Made by a program: the position numbers and the translations under genes. Of a stretch of DNA of 23,412 nt, positions 2,719 to 18,447 are shown one piece after another. The stretch comes from a virus. The stretch covers positions 1-23,412 of IMG/VR virus record IMGVR_UViG_3300042691_002929. The stretch is one strand, 5' to 3'. The notes beneath the pieces are model-generated. The model made no database searches. It saw nothing but the letters and a program-made list of their open reading frames with translations, and had not been told where the DNA came from. Every line of letters begins with the position of its first letter. Position 1 is the stretch's first letter.

Positions 2719-3141
2719 ATGGAACTTAGAACGACAAAATTTGATGTTACCGCCGATAACATCGGTTATTACTTAGGCATCCCCGTTGATATTGAAATTG
2801 ATTATTGGACTGAAAGGCATGATGAAAAGGTCATTGCATGGTATCTTGAGATTGAATCTTCAAAAGATGGTATGCCGTTTATCAAAACACGATTCCAATA
2901 TATTAACATAACTATTCATTGGTCAATTGATAAGGACGATCTTGACGATGATCAATTCGTAAGGCTTAAACTTAATCACGATGTTGAAGAGAAACGTAAC
3001 ACGCTTGAGGGTTCAATAATGATATACACAATCCGCGAAAAGGATAAGAACTGGCGTGTTGATTTCAATATTGATATAATCGGAGGCAATGGGTACTCTG
3101 CGCATATAGACTTTTTGGAAAATAAAATTGAGATAATATGA
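2719..3141 (+). CDS. acidic protein of unknown function
   Basis: A 140-residue protein starting MELRTTKFDV. I reject the longer reading from 2674 because its extra N-terminus (MWVRFPTLP) is translated from the tRNA T-arm-like sequence. The protein is acidic, with 29 Asp/Glu against 17 Lys/Arg and a DKDDLDDDQF stretch near the middle, and alternates polar and hydrophobic residues in a way that suggests mostly beta structure. No catalytic motif, Cys cluster or membrane segment is visible. Its stop overlaps the methyltransferase start (ATGA). An accessory role with the methyltransferase, or a DNA-mimic or anti-restriction role because of the charge, is only a guess. I do not recognise the family. 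Confidence 0.6.
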   Translation: MELRTTKFDVTADNIGYYLGIPVDIEIDYWTERHDEKVIAWYLEIESSKDGMPFIKTRFQYINITIHWSIDKDDLDDDQFVRLKLNHDVEEKRNTLEGSIMIYTIREKDKNWRVDFNIDIIGGNGYSAHIDFLENKIEII

Positions 3142-3938
3142 CGCATGGCTCACTATTTAGCGGAATAGGAGGCTTTGACCTGGCGGCTGAATGGATGGGA
3201 TGGGAGAATAAATTTCATTGCGAATGGAATGAGTTTGGTCAGAAAGTCCTTCATCATTATTGGCCTGAAGCAGAATTATTTACAGACATCACAAAATCAG
3301 ATTTTACTAAATATGCAAACAGAATTGATATTCTCACAGGAGGTTTCCCATGTCAACCATACTCAAGCGCAGGAAAACGACTCGGCAAAGAAGATGACCG
3401 ACATCTCTGGCCGCAAATGCTTAGAACAATTAGAGAAATTCAACCGCGTTGGGTTGTGGGCGAGAACGTTCGCGGCCTTACTAATTGGAATGGAGGGTTG
3501 GTATTCGACGAAGTGCAAGCTGACTTGGAAGCTGAAGGCTACCAAGTGCTCCCGTTTTTACTTCCAGCTTGTGCCGTCAACGCACCAACAGAAGAGATAG
3601 GATCTGGTTTGTTGCCTACTCCAAAAGTTGTGGAAGCTCCATCGGCAAGCTGGGAGAATCGCAAACTAGACAGCAAATACAAACCAGGGGTAACATTAAC
3701 GGACTTGAAGATTTGGGTATTGCTGCCGACACCACGAACATCAGACGAAAGGATGCATTGGAAAACGGAGAATTGGAAAGGCGACGATTTAGGGAGTCAA
3801 ATCAACGAAATGCTTGGCATACGTTCCCATCTGTCTCCCCAATTTGTAATGGAGATGATGGGATTTCCGACCGATTGGACTTTATTACCTTTCCTAAATG
3901 GCGAAACGAATCAATCAAAGCTGGAGGAAATGCAATAG
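3138..3938 (+). CDS. C5-cytosine DNA methyltransferase, N-terminal catalytic part with out-of-frame tail
   Basis: The first ~151 residues are a clear Dcm-type enzyme that transfers methyl from S-adenosylmethionine to cytosine C5. Visible are motif I SLFSGIGGFDLA (from residue 5), motif IV GGFPCQPYS with the catalytic Cys at residue 72, motif VI ENV at 109-111, and the start of motif VIII, LPACAVNAPT. After APT (about 3588-3590) the frame leaves the methyltransferase: the expected RRDRIWFVAY continues in the -1 frame (3569-4012). This frame instead reads GLLPTPKVVE, LLPTPRTSDE and EMMGFPTDWTLLPF to the stop at 3938, so the product has no motif IX or X. A single added base near 3587-3593 would restore a normal enzyme. 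As written it is probably inactive unless complemented by the second piece. Confidence 0.8.
   Translation: MTHGSLFSGIGGFDLAAEWMGWENKFHCEWNEFGQKVLHHYWPEAELFTDITKSDFTKYANRIDILTGGFPCQPYSSAGKRLGKEDDRHLWPQMLRTIREIQPRWVVGENVRGLTNWNGGLVFDEVQADLEAEGYQVLPFLLPACAVNAPTEEIGSGLLPTPKVVEAPSASWENRKLDSKYKPGVTLTDLKIWVLLPTPRTSDERMHWKTENWKGDDLGSQINEMLGIRSHLSPQFVMEMMGFPTDWTLLPFLNGETNQSKLEEMQ
3313..3938 (+). other. overprinted second reading frame inside the C5-methyltransferase
   Basis: In the third + frame an ORF is open from at least 3175 (ATG at 3313) to TAG at 3598-3600. It reads GRKCLEQLEKFNRVGLWART, then EGWYSTKCKLTWKLKATK and SRFYFQLVPSTH. If one base is inserted near 3587-3593 it joins the frame reading GSGLLPTPKVVE through EMMGFPTDW to 3938, making about 250 continuous codons. 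The string KCxLTWKLKxTK...FQLVPST...GLLPTP...MMGFPxxWT is one I remember as a recurring sequence in phage and metagenome proteins, often labelled methyltransferase. The same insertion also repairs the methyltransferase frame. This is either a real overprinted protein or a constrained shadow. Position 3175 opens with TTG; 3313 is the first plausible ATG. Confidence 0.4.
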
Positions 3939-4012
3939 TTCCTCAAGTAGTATATCAAATATTTAAAGCAATAGAACAATATGAAAGAATCAGAACTACA
4001 AACAAAGATTAA
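3569..4012 (+). CDS. C5-cytosine DNA methyltransferase, C-terminal fragment
   Basis: This frame carries the missing C-terminal half of the methyltransferase. From 3590 it reads RRDRIWFVAYSK, the rest of motif VIII; a variable target-recognition region follows; and it ends with ESIKAGGNAIVPQVVYQIF, the motif IX-X region that helps bind S-adenosylmethionine. The only start near the beginning is TTG at 3569 with no clear ribosome binding site, so independent translation is doubtful. It lies in the -1 frame relative to the N-terminal part, and I see no classical slippery heptamer at the junction (CCAACAGAAGAG). The likeliest reading is the second half of one gene split by a one-base loss. It overlaps the VRR-NUC start by 32 bases. 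Confidence 0.65.
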   Translation: MCRQRTNRRDRIWFVAYSKSCGSSIGKLGESQTRQQIQTRGNINGLEDLGIAADTTNIRRKDALENGELERRRFRESNQRNAWHTFPSVSPICNGDDGISDRLDFITFPKWRNESIKAGGNAIVPQVVYQIFKAIEQYERIRTTNKD

Positions 4013-4253
4013 AGAACGACTAACAAAACATGGATGGCTTGTTGTTAAATTAGAAAAAACATCATGGAATGGCATCCCCGATCTTATGTGTATTAGAAAA
4101 GGACATGTGATGTTTTTAGAGATAAAAACGGAAAATGGTGTAGTTTCGCCACTGCAAGACCATCGCATCAAAATGCTTAACGACATCGGATGTTTTGCGC
4201 GTGTGGTTAGAAGCATTGACGATACGGATATTTTTTGTTATAAAAACTTATAA
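3981..4253 (+). CDS. VRR-NUC domain nuclease
   Basis: A 90-residue protein that is almost entirely one VRR-NUC domain of the PD-(D/E)XK superfamily. The catalytic pattern is visible as GIPDLMCI with Asp at residue 34, and FLEIK with Glu 47 and Lys 49, followed by the QxxRIKMLND helix and FARVVRS. Phage proteins of this size are usually stand-alone nucleases, some acting on branched DNA such as Holliday junctions, others in a helicase-nuclease pair. It starts inside the end of the methyltransferase C-terminal frame and ends 2 bases before the next methyltransferase, so it is co-transcribed. Fold and active site are firm; the substrate is inferred. Confidence 0.85.
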   Translation: MKESELQTKIKERLTKHGWLVVKLEKTSWNGIPDLMCIRKGHVMFLEIKTENGVVSPLQDHRIKMLNDIGCFARVVRSIDDTDIFCYKNL

Positions 4254-4255
4254 TC

Positions 4256-4870
4256 ATGCCAACAAGCGAAGTGTTTAACATGGACTGTATGGAAGGGATG
4301 GCGCAATACCCTGACAAGTATTTTGAGCTAGCTATCGTTGATCCGCCGTATGGATTAGGCCAAAAAATATATTCAGGAGGTACAAAAGGATGCAAGTTTC
4401 ATACTTTATTTGGAGAAAATAAATGGGATGACAATATACCTCCTAATGAATATTTTTTGGAATTATTTAGAATAAGTAAAAATCAAATAATTTGGGGAGG
4501 AAATTACTTTCCATTAATGCCAACAAGATGTATTATAATATGGGACAAATTAAAAGGAGATAATAATTTTTCAATGTTTGAACTTGCTTGGACTTATTTT
4601 GATAAGCCAGCAAAAATATATAAAAAAAATTCATCTGATAATGATAAAATACACCCAACACAAAAGCCAATAAAATTATATAGTTGGTTAATAAATAAAT
4701 ACGCAACCCCAGGCGATAAAATACTAGATACCCATTTGGGTAGTGGTTCAAGCCGCATTGCTGCGTATGATCTAGGCTTTGACTTTACCGGTTATGAGCT
4801 TGATAAAGATTACTTTGACGCCCAAAACAAACGATTTAACGATTTCACAATGCAACAAAAACTATTTTAA
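4256..4870 (+). CDS. N6-adenine/N4-cytosine DNA methyltransferase
   Basis: A 204-residue DNA methyltransferase of the beta order: catalytic motif first, AdoMet-binding motif last. Motif IV is DPPYG at residues 29-33; the SAM-binding block is DTHLGSGSS from residue 158, preceded by the conserved IHPTQKPIKLYSWL and followed by GFDFTGYELDKDYF. DPPY points to adenine N6 more than cytosine N4. No restriction endonuclease partner is adjacent, so it likely protects phage DNA from host restriction. The segment from about 4380 to 4700, lying between the two motifs and containing the target-recognition part, is far more AT-rich than the flanks, suggesting that this part was exchanged. It ends 3 bases before the primase gene. 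Confidence 0.9.
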   Translation: MPTSEVFNMDCMEGMAQYPDKYFELAIVDPPYGLGQKIYSGGTKGCKFHTLFGENKWDDNIPPNEYFLELFRISKNQIIWGGNYFPLMPTRCIIIWDKLKGDNNFSMFELAWTYFDKPAKIYKKNSSDNDKIHPTQKPIKLYSWLINKYATPGDKILDTHLGSGSSRIAAYDLGFDFTGYELDKDYFDAQNKRFNDFTMQQKLF

Positions 4871-16413: not shown

Positions 16414-18447
16414 ATGGCAGATAAGACTACAAATATAGCCGCCAAGATAACGGTTGATTCTACTGATGCTCAAAAAAATTTAGGGGAAACAAAAAAGCAG
16501 ATTGATAGTTTAGGCAATAGTGCCGAAAAAAGTACAAAGAGCGCAAAAGAAACGGCAGGGGCTTTTGGCAGTATTGGGAACGCTTTAAAGTCGTTGGGGA
16601 TAATTGGTGCGATAACGGCGGCATTTAATTTCTTTCGTGAAACATTAAGCAAGAATCAAAAAGTTGCGGATAGCGTTGCGGCGGTATTTAATACAATATC
16701 AACGGTTATTAATACGCTGATTGATATTTTTATAAGTGTAACAACTGAGGTAGGTAAAAATACAAACGGATTCGCTGCACTTGGTAAAGTATTGGGAGGT
16801 GTTTTAACGCTTGTTATAACGCCTTTAAAAGCGGCTTTTGATGGTGTTAAATTAGTTATTAATGAAATACAATTAGCGTGGGAGAAATCCCCTTTGGGTG
16901 ATAAGGACCAGACAACAATAAAAGAGCTAACCAAAAGCATCAATGAAACAAAAGATAGCTTATCACAAACGGGTAAAAACGCCGTACAAGCTGGCAAAGA
17001 TATTTATAACAATTTCGGTGAGGCTGCGTCGTCAGTTGTTGATGTAGTTAGCGGTGTAGTTGAGAAGGCTAGCAAAATAAATGTTGCCGCTATTTACGAG
17101 CAATCAAAGGCGACAATTGCACTGCAAAATAATGCAAAGATTGCCGCCGCTCAACTTCAAGGACTTGTCGAGCAATACGATAGACAAGCCGAACAATTAA
17201 GGCAAGTAAGGGATGACGAATTCAAAAGCATTGACGAAAGGATCGCGGCGAATGATGCGCTCGGTAAGGTATTGGACGATCAAGAGAAGGCATTAAAAAG
17301 ATTAGCAAATCAAAGGGTCGCCGCCGCCGCCGCTGAGCTTGCACAAAACAAATCAAGCGTTGAATTGCAAGCCGCATTGATTGAAGCGCAGAATGAAGTC
17401 GCTGCCGTTGAGGCTCAAGTCGCTGGGTTAAGATCGGAGCAGTTAGTCAACGCAACGGCTTTGACAAAAGAGCGGTTAGCTCTTGATCAAGCTATTGCGG
17501 CAAGTGAAAATAAATTGCTTATTGATAGAAAAAAGGCAAACGCTGAGCTTATAAAAGATGAGATTGAGAAGCTAAACACAAGTAGAAAAATAGCTCAAGA
17601 GGAATCAGAGATTGAATTAAAAAGGCTTCAAGATAATATAAATAATTCAAAAGCTGGTACTCAGGCGCGTGTTGACGCAGAGATTGCCTATGCAGAAAAA
17701 AAGCAGCAGATTGATCTTTCTTTACAAGCCTTAGACAATCAAATTGCGGTCGCTACTTATAAAAGAGAAATAGAGGTACTTGATAGGGTACAGACAGAAA
17801 GAGATATTGCTTTTCAAGTTAGGCTTGAAGCTCTTGATCAGGAACAGATACTTGTTCAAGAGGCTTTTGATAATAGATTAATAACAGAAAGCGAGTACAC
17901 TCAAAAAGTTAAGTCATTAACTGATCAGCGTATTGCTTACCAAGATGCAGAACTTCAAGCTAAATTACAATATGCAAACGCAATAGGTGGTATATTATCA
18001 GGACTTTCTGGATTATTTGAACAAGGAACTGCGGCCGCAAAAGTTGCTGCACTTGCCGAGATTGCTATCGGTACTGGTACTGGTTTTATTCAAGGTTTAG
18101 ATATTGCGCAAAAAAGTGCAAAAGCTGCTGGACCTGGTGCCGCGTTTGCTTTCCCTATTTTTTATGCTACTCAAATAGCAGCGGTACTTGGTGCGGCGTC
18201 AAAAGCCAAAAATATATTAACTCAAGTAAAAGGCGGATCTGGTGGTGGAGGTAGTATTGCTCCGCTTTCTGTTCCTACAATAAACGCTCAAGCTCCGCTA
18301 ACAAGCCAAACGCAAACTACAAGAATAGATCAAGATCAAATCAATCAAATTGGCAATGTGGCCGCTAGGGCATACGTTGTTGAAAGCGATGTATCAAACG
18401 CTCAAGAGCGTGCGGATAGGTTGAATCGTGCCGCTACAATCATGTAA
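16414..18447 (+). CDS. tail tape measure protein
   Basis: A 677-residue protein. The N-terminal ~50 residues are Lys/Thr-rich and helical (TKKQIDSLGNSAEKSTKSAK), followed by hydrophobic segments GIIGAITAAFNFF and VLGGVLTLVITPL. A very long Ala/Gln/Glu/Lys-rich coiled coil runs from about 220 to 520 (EQYDRQAEQLRQVRDDEF, AAAAELAQNKSS). A second hydrophobic block follows near 535-595, then a glycine linker GGSGGGGS and a C-terminal tail. This is the standard make-up of a tape measure, which sets siphovirus tail length and leaves the tail at infection. At the usual 1.5 angstrom per residue the length implies a tail of roughly 100 nm. Its Ala-rich reading leaves long antisense frames that are shadows. 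Confidence 0.85.
   Translation: MADKTTNIAAKITVDSTDAQKNLGETKKQIDSLGNSAEKSTKSAKETAGAFGSIGNALKSLGIIGAITAAFNFFRETLSKNQKVADSVAAVFNTISTVINTLIDIFISVTTEVGKNTNGFAALGKVLGGVLTLVITPLKAAFDGVKLVINEIQLAWEKSPLGDKDQTTIKELTKSINETKDSLSQTGKNAVQAGKDIYNNFGEAASSVVDVVSGVVEKASKINVAAIYEQSKATIALQNNAKIAAAQLQGLVEQYDRQAEQLRQVRDDEFKSIDERIAANDALGKVLDDQEKALKRLANQRVAAAAAELAQNKSSVELQAALIEAQNEVAAVEAQVAGLRSEQLVNATALTKERLALDQAIAASENKLLIDRKKANAELIKDEIEKLNTSRKIAQEESEIELKRLQDNINNSKAGTQARVDAEIAYAEKKQQIDLSLQALDNQIAVATYKREIEVLDRVQTERDIAFQVRLEALDQEQILVQEAFDNRLITESEYTQKVKSLTDQRIAYQDAELQAKLQYANAIGGILSGLSGLFEQGTAAAKVAALAEIAIGTGTGFIQGLDIAQKSAKAAGPGAAFAFPIFYATQIAAVLGAASKAKNILTQVKGGSGGGGSIAPLSVPTINAQAPLTSQTQTTRIDQDQINQIGNVAARAYVVESDVSNAQERADRLNRAATIM

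Follow-up and report, generated by a model that had tools for sequence, protein, structure and literature searches.

Sequence evidence for a second gene nested within a subfamily of phage C5-cytosine methyltransferase genes

Two overlapping genes and one lost base

The window analyzed here, the 23,412-base virus record IMGVR_UViG_3300042691_002929 (positions 1 to 23,412), carries a C5-cytosine methyltransferase (MTase) gene that is divided between two reading frames; unless stated otherwise, all features of the window described below are on the plus strand. The N-terminal half (3138–3587) begins in frame 0 with the ATG at 3138, contains the FSGIGG, GGFPCQP and ENV motifs, and matches PF00145 (E 3.1e-36, residues 2–150) and phrog_363 (E 1.6e-53). 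The C-terminal half (3588–4012) runs in the −1 frame from RRDRIWFVAY to GNAIVPQVVYQIF, reaches its stop at 4012, matches phrog_363 positions 204–322 (E 1.7e-7) and has motif X visible. The C5-MTase motifs I (FxGxGG), IV (PCQ), VI (ENV) and X (GNAxVP) are all present in the window, distributed over the two frames, and lie in one frame in relatives; motif IV, the GGFPCQP that holds the catalytic cysteine, is at 3339–3359. Motifs and profile matches in both halves thereby bear out the first-pass annotation, made from the DNA letters alone, according to which the MTase passes at ~3588 into the −1 frame and continues through 4012.

The +1 frame relative to the MTase holds a second, overprinted gene, likewise in two pieces. 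The ORFs of the window confirm that an open frame at 3175–3600 is joined to another at 3591–3938 by the same −1 shift. The N-terminal half of the second gene, with a probable start at ATG 3313 (3313–3600), reads MQTELIFSQEV through to LTWKLKATKCSRFYFQLVPST, and the C-terminal half past the lesion (3591–3938) reads GLLPTP, LLPTPRTSD and on to LSPQFVMEMMGFPTDWTLLPF. Matched against phage protein families, both halves found the PHROG family phrog_1008, at positions 36–126 (E 1.1e-9) and 159–279 (E 3.6e-6), respectively; another search returned E-values of 1.6e-7 and 2e-6. The product would open with MQTELIF (3313–3333), the form that an N-terminal Q-motif takes in the window lineage and that elsewhere reads QISLF, QTSLF or QLTLF. 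Conservation in the second protein is highest in LTWKLKATKCSRFYFQLVPST (3520–3582), which is predicted to form a β-hairpin in an AlphaFold2 model of a relative and whose W, L, K, F and L columns are strongly above null. Further downstream, alignment columns and consensus place a GLLPTP motif (3606–3623) over the RIWFVAYS of the MTase, and MMGFPTDWT (3855–3881) lies over the MTase sequence DDGISDRLD, with M, G and P invariant in alignments A2–A4 and columns reaching z 41. Strings that had initially been noted as recurrent in phage proteins, among them LTWKxK, FQLxPST, LLPTP and MMGFPxxWT, proved in the family alignments to be genuine signatures of this family.

The loss of one base within 3585–3593 shifts both frames. 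In a DNA alignment with the 16 nearest relatives shown (72–84% identical), a single-column gap at ~3587/3588 is unique to the window and absent from all 16; intact copies therefore exist, and the one base first proposed to be missing near 3587–3593 suffices to break both ORFs. Since the relatives lack the gap, the lesion alone also accounts for a 266-aa ORF at 3138–3938, in which the MTase N-terminus is fused to the C-terminal half of the second frame. The longest other out-of-frame ORF has, as originally counted, 113 codons (16656–16997, minus strand). We lean slightly toward the lost base being a sequencing or assembly error in a phage that has both genes whole, as close relatives are intact and both frames are undamaged elsewhere around the lesion; natural single lesions in one or the other frame do, however, occur elsewhere (L120, L083, L248 and L276).

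Selection on the nested frame

When the joined second frame was used as a tblastn query, 18 phage records matched. Lactobacillus phage Lc-Nu is one of the phages with an intact copy. Ten loci were read closely, from Bacteroides, Porphyromonas, Lactobacillus/Lacticaseibacillus, Paenibacillus, marine and other phages, and all had the second frame at +1 of an MTase; in loci found by this search, the +1 open run extended up to 379 codons, as compared to 38 for the +2 frame. To limit bias, 160 viral loci were fetched with MTase queries only, and 157 intact MTases, including nine of the ten annotated phage loci, were tested against codon-permuted genes that kept protein and codon usage (cut-off p<0.01). 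The +1 open run was longer than 99% of the codon-permuted versions for 93.6% of these MTases, a proportion that describes the subfamily rather than C5-MTases in general because the first query alignment (A1) was drawn from phages found via the second frame. The median +1 open run covered 79% of the gene. The same test was passed by 0.6% for the +2 frame and by 1.3% of 226 neighboring genes; homologues thus keep both frames open. Rare members (L120/L121, L083, L322 and L420) have an intact MTase and one stop in the second frame, which in L120 sits at the same motif as the window lesion.

Conservation of the encoded protein was queried using 53 representatives less than 65% identical, for which the +1 BLOSUM score per column was compared to codon-permuted controls. 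The mean was 0.805, against a null of 0.029 ± 0.008 (z = 95). Conservation in the +1 frame extends from just before GGFPCQP, which marks its upstream border closely, to a DG[IL]P motif, with z near 0 on both flanks, and second-frame columns are fixed (P at 100%, W at 84%, TP at 90%) at sites that vary widely in the MTase frame. The +2 frame has a weaker excess (z = 33), as expected because it shares the constrained bases. Because +1 conservation starts only just before GGFPCQP, and the upstream extension of the frame (3175–3312) is open but unconserved (z near 0) and probably untranslated as part of the second gene, the start likely lies at ATG 3313, which would give an intact product of ~208 codons. 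A nested gene was thus correctly called at the outset, but not its start at 3175 nor its length of ~250 codons.

Substitutions tell a similar story at the level of codon positions. Across 67 independent close pairs, we counted differences per MTase codon by position; at the third position (p3) these amounted to 0.116 at PC+26 to PC+65 versus 0.285 in the non-overlapped N-terminus, and more broadly to 0.116–0.228 inside the overlap versus 0.285 and 0.315 outside. The ratio of third- to first-position differences (p3/p1) fell from 5.97 upstream of the overlap to 1.54 and 1.21 within it, and was 2.31 downstream. Synonymous-site variation is thus reduced over the overlap; openness, +1 protein conservation and third-position constraint all agree with the conserved overprinted gene that the first-pass annotation had suggested. 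Of the two outcomes named there as refuting it, homologues with a second frame full of stops and an overlap with no drop in synonymous variation, neither was seen when both were checked.

Could the +1 ORF be a mere shadow of the conserved MTase protein, of its codon usage or of base composition? Some +1 strings do overlay conserved MTase motifs (GLLPTP over IWFVAYS, and MGFPxxWT over DGISxRLD). Codon-permuted genes, however, reproduce neither the openness nor the +1 protein similarity, such openness is seen neither in the +2 frame nor in neighboring genes, and canonical C5-MTases have no open +1 frame; moreover, third-position changes are suppressed in the overlap only, and +1 residues are kept where MTase residues are not. 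We rejected a shadow or composition artefact on codon permutation, the +2 frame, the neighboring genes and the canonical MTases, and consider its probability negligible, short of an mRNA constraint outside the model that happened to span precisely the overlap. By the sequence evidence, a subfamily of phage and prophage C5-MTase genes is dual-coded, and the window copy is broken in both proteins by one lost base.

Synthesis and possible role of the second protein

A model of the locus emerges, in which we have high confidence as the best explanation of the whole: a dual-coded MTase with an internally initiated second protein. The sequences show the second protein to be encoded in ~160–360 codons at +1 on the MTase strand, wholly nested in the MTase from just before the PCQ motif to ~25 codons ahead of the MTase stop, and maintained by purifying selection in phages and prophages from many bacterial phyla. 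Its likely route of synthesis is internal initiation of translation on the mRNA of the MTase, from an ATG 8–28 codons upstream of the PCQ codons (ATG 3313 in the window). Among 166 non-redundant members, an in-frame ATG is present in the open stretch ahead of the conserved part in 92.8% (null 28.7%), and an SD of at least 5 nt precedes an ATG in 12% (null 2.4%); both enrichments owe something to the +1 frame being open in the first place. A candidate internal start stands out clearly in L173/L196, with GGAGGACAAATG, and in LILY_63 and RANI_51, where it is the annotated one. The start does not keep strictly to one position, and the SD is absent in most Bacteroidota-type members.

The second frame might instead be reached from the MTase frame by programmed ribosomal frameshifting, with no start of its own. 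The window ORF at 3138–3938 has the form of such a fusion, and in L008 the MTase N-terminus and the second frame share a phase, separated by a stop. Yet the window fusion stems from a gap absent in relatives, the +1 frame of most intact homologues is closed shortly upstream and opens beside an ATG, and no common slippery sequence was noticed among homologues. We regard frameshifting as improbable and retain internal initiation as the preferred route.

Searches of the second protein against Pfam returned no family, with weak, scattered or chance matches only, and a PDB sequence search found no relatives. The AlphaFold2 model of a relative has a mean pLDDT of 59, with 83–88 in the hairpin block (strands 69–76/82–89) and low values in the rest. 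The best-conserved segments are this hairpin, LTWKxK...RxxFQL, and the MMGFPxxWT end, not the N-terminus. Just past the start, the motif Q[ILMTV][STDN]LF occurs in 67 of the 166 non-redundant members (40%) versus 1.0% in the null; it is found in two registers (−17 and −9, counted from the PC in PCQ), and the ATG lies most often 5–7 codons ahead of it. Within the window lineage, MQTxLxF is present in 22 of 26 members against 0.58 in the null; the window itself has MQTELIF, which is not a strict clamp pentapeptide. The consensus of bacterial β-sliding-clamp binders is QLxLF (PMC4549789), and the QLTLF, QISLF, QTSLF and QMTLF sequences near the start of the second protein are alike. These candidate clamp motifs differ from those clamp-binding peptides in that they are N-terminal and are absent in about half of the members.

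Given these likenesses, our leading guess, which we offer tentatively, is that the second protein may serve the MTase as an accessory that binds the clamp, or may inhibit the host clamp. The N-terminal Q-x-x-L-F peptide would dock on the bacterial β sliding clamp (DnaN), while a partner, which could be the MTase itself, would be bound by the LTWK...FQL hairpin and the MMGFPxxWT segment at the C-terminus; the second protein would in this way tether methylation to replicating DNA, or else occupy the host clamp. A working clamp motif would link phage DNA methylation or host shut-off to the replication fork. There is a close to even chance that the second protein of this selected overlap acts as an MTase regulator, folding partner or other anti-host factor that does not bind the clamp, with the Q-motif meaning something else. 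Such a role would sit well with a protein that is never found without the MTase frame, that lacks the clamp-like motif in about half of its members and that is better conserved in the hairpin and the MMGFPxxWT end than at the N-terminus. Against it stands the strict QxxLF motif, at 40% versus 1% expected and in two independent registers close to the start.

Distribution, annotation and variants of the overprinted family

A profile search with the second frame retrieved 160 loci from viral contigs and bacterial genomes, mostly Bacteroidota, with Bacillota, Pseudomonadota, Calditrichota, Patescibacteria and others also represented. Every one of these loci has the second frame at +1 of an MTase, and none of the 160 carries it as a stand-alone gene outside an MTase. 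When Pfam was used to select 63 C5-MTase loci in Bacteroidota and Bacillota genomes, plus six genomes known beforehand to be carriers, the loci split cleanly and bimodally into 10 with the second frame and 53 without, a ratio that, given the six known carriers, is no estimate of prevalence. The overprinting belongs, on these sequence comparisons, to a defined subfamily of C5-MTases. The PF00145 match in overprinted MTases covers mainly the N-terminal half; the dual coding explains the poor Pfam fit of their C-terminal half.

The PHROG family phrog_1008 (329 positions), matched by all 84 aligned second-frame proteins, is the same family; its label, ‘DNA methyltransferase’, is misleading, as the family is the +1-frame product and not the MTase, and is silent on the overlap. 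‘Internal gene’ calls in phages of Paenibacillus larvae (LILY_63, ‘g62 internal gene’; RANI_51, ‘g50 Internal gene’) correspond to the same +1 frame at the same MTase position; these were entered one genome at a time, with no function assigned, no test of conservation and no wider context. Literature searches found no paper describing this MTase overlap or its second protein. Elsewhere, the overlap has spread an error of naming, with the second-frame protein entered as the enzyme whose gene it shares (‘DNA methyltransferase’, ‘putative cytosine-specific methyltransferase’): TADHANA_55 of a P. larvae phage (L448, 1183–1887) is named DNA-cytosine methyltransferase, and KT997847 cds26 (L008, 2049–2636) bears an MTase-type name. 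A strongly selected protein family lies inside one of the commonest phage enzymes, misnamed and usually missing from annotation.

Same-strand nested or overprinted genes are familiar in phages, as with Rz1 within Rz and the overlaps of microviruses. The MTase pair is alike in that one DNA stretch encodes two proteins in shifted frames and the inner gene probably has its own start. It differs in that the outer gene encodes an enzyme, the inner ORF has 160–360 codons, and the pair occurs in phages and prophages from a wide range of bacterial phyla. Overprinted MTases offer a naturally replicated test case for two proteins evolving in one sequence.

In one group, a stop precedes the catalytic cysteine of the MTase. 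A 6-nt insertion, TRA-YYR, converts the catalytic motif to GGFP-stop-[LPS]-CQP in L173 (1762–2620), L186, L196, L309 and L313, and the same interrupted motif is present in 19 of 47 pattern-scan contigs (L333, L335, L337, L340–L343, L345, L348, L350, L357, L361, L365, L368–L370, L372, L376 and L378); the insertions seen are TAACTA, TAACCA, TGACCA and TGATCG, and both frames are otherwise open. In the eleven distinct pattern-scan sequences, of a Bacteroidetes-phage lineage, a stem-loop lies directly ahead of the stop, with an MFE of −25 to −31 versus −10 ± 4.5 for the corresponding region of other MTases, and with three covarying pairs; the same stem-loop is absent from L309 and L313. The MTase frame past the stop is still constrained (p3 0.274, p1 0.184, p2 0.127), which makes a recoding event or a split enzyme plausible, and this lineage is a candidate for programmed bypass, readthrough or a split MTase. 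A more far-reaching possibility, which we consider rather unlikely as a whole, is that one gene might encode in two frames an MTase and a small clamp-binding partner that either ties methylation to the replication fork or hijacks the fork, and that the MTase of this one lineage, with its stop before the cysteine behind a covarying hairpin, might be completed by programmed recoding such as a 6-nt ribosomal bypass.

In its variable middle part, the overlap acquires and sheds LLPTPxAxD modules in the second frame (L001, L003, L196 and other long members); in the window, LLPTP-type modules are found at 3606–3623 and in the later LLPTPRTSD stretch. The count of PTP repeats appears to covary with the length of the MTase target-recognition region (~245–490 MTase codons in total). 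Downstream in the window, a short nuclease-like ORF (3981–4253), VRR-NUC-like by our own reading and by its neighbors in related phages, starts within the last 32 bases of the MTase and so forms a third overlap at the locus; it is followed at 4256 by a probable amino-MTase (DPPYG).
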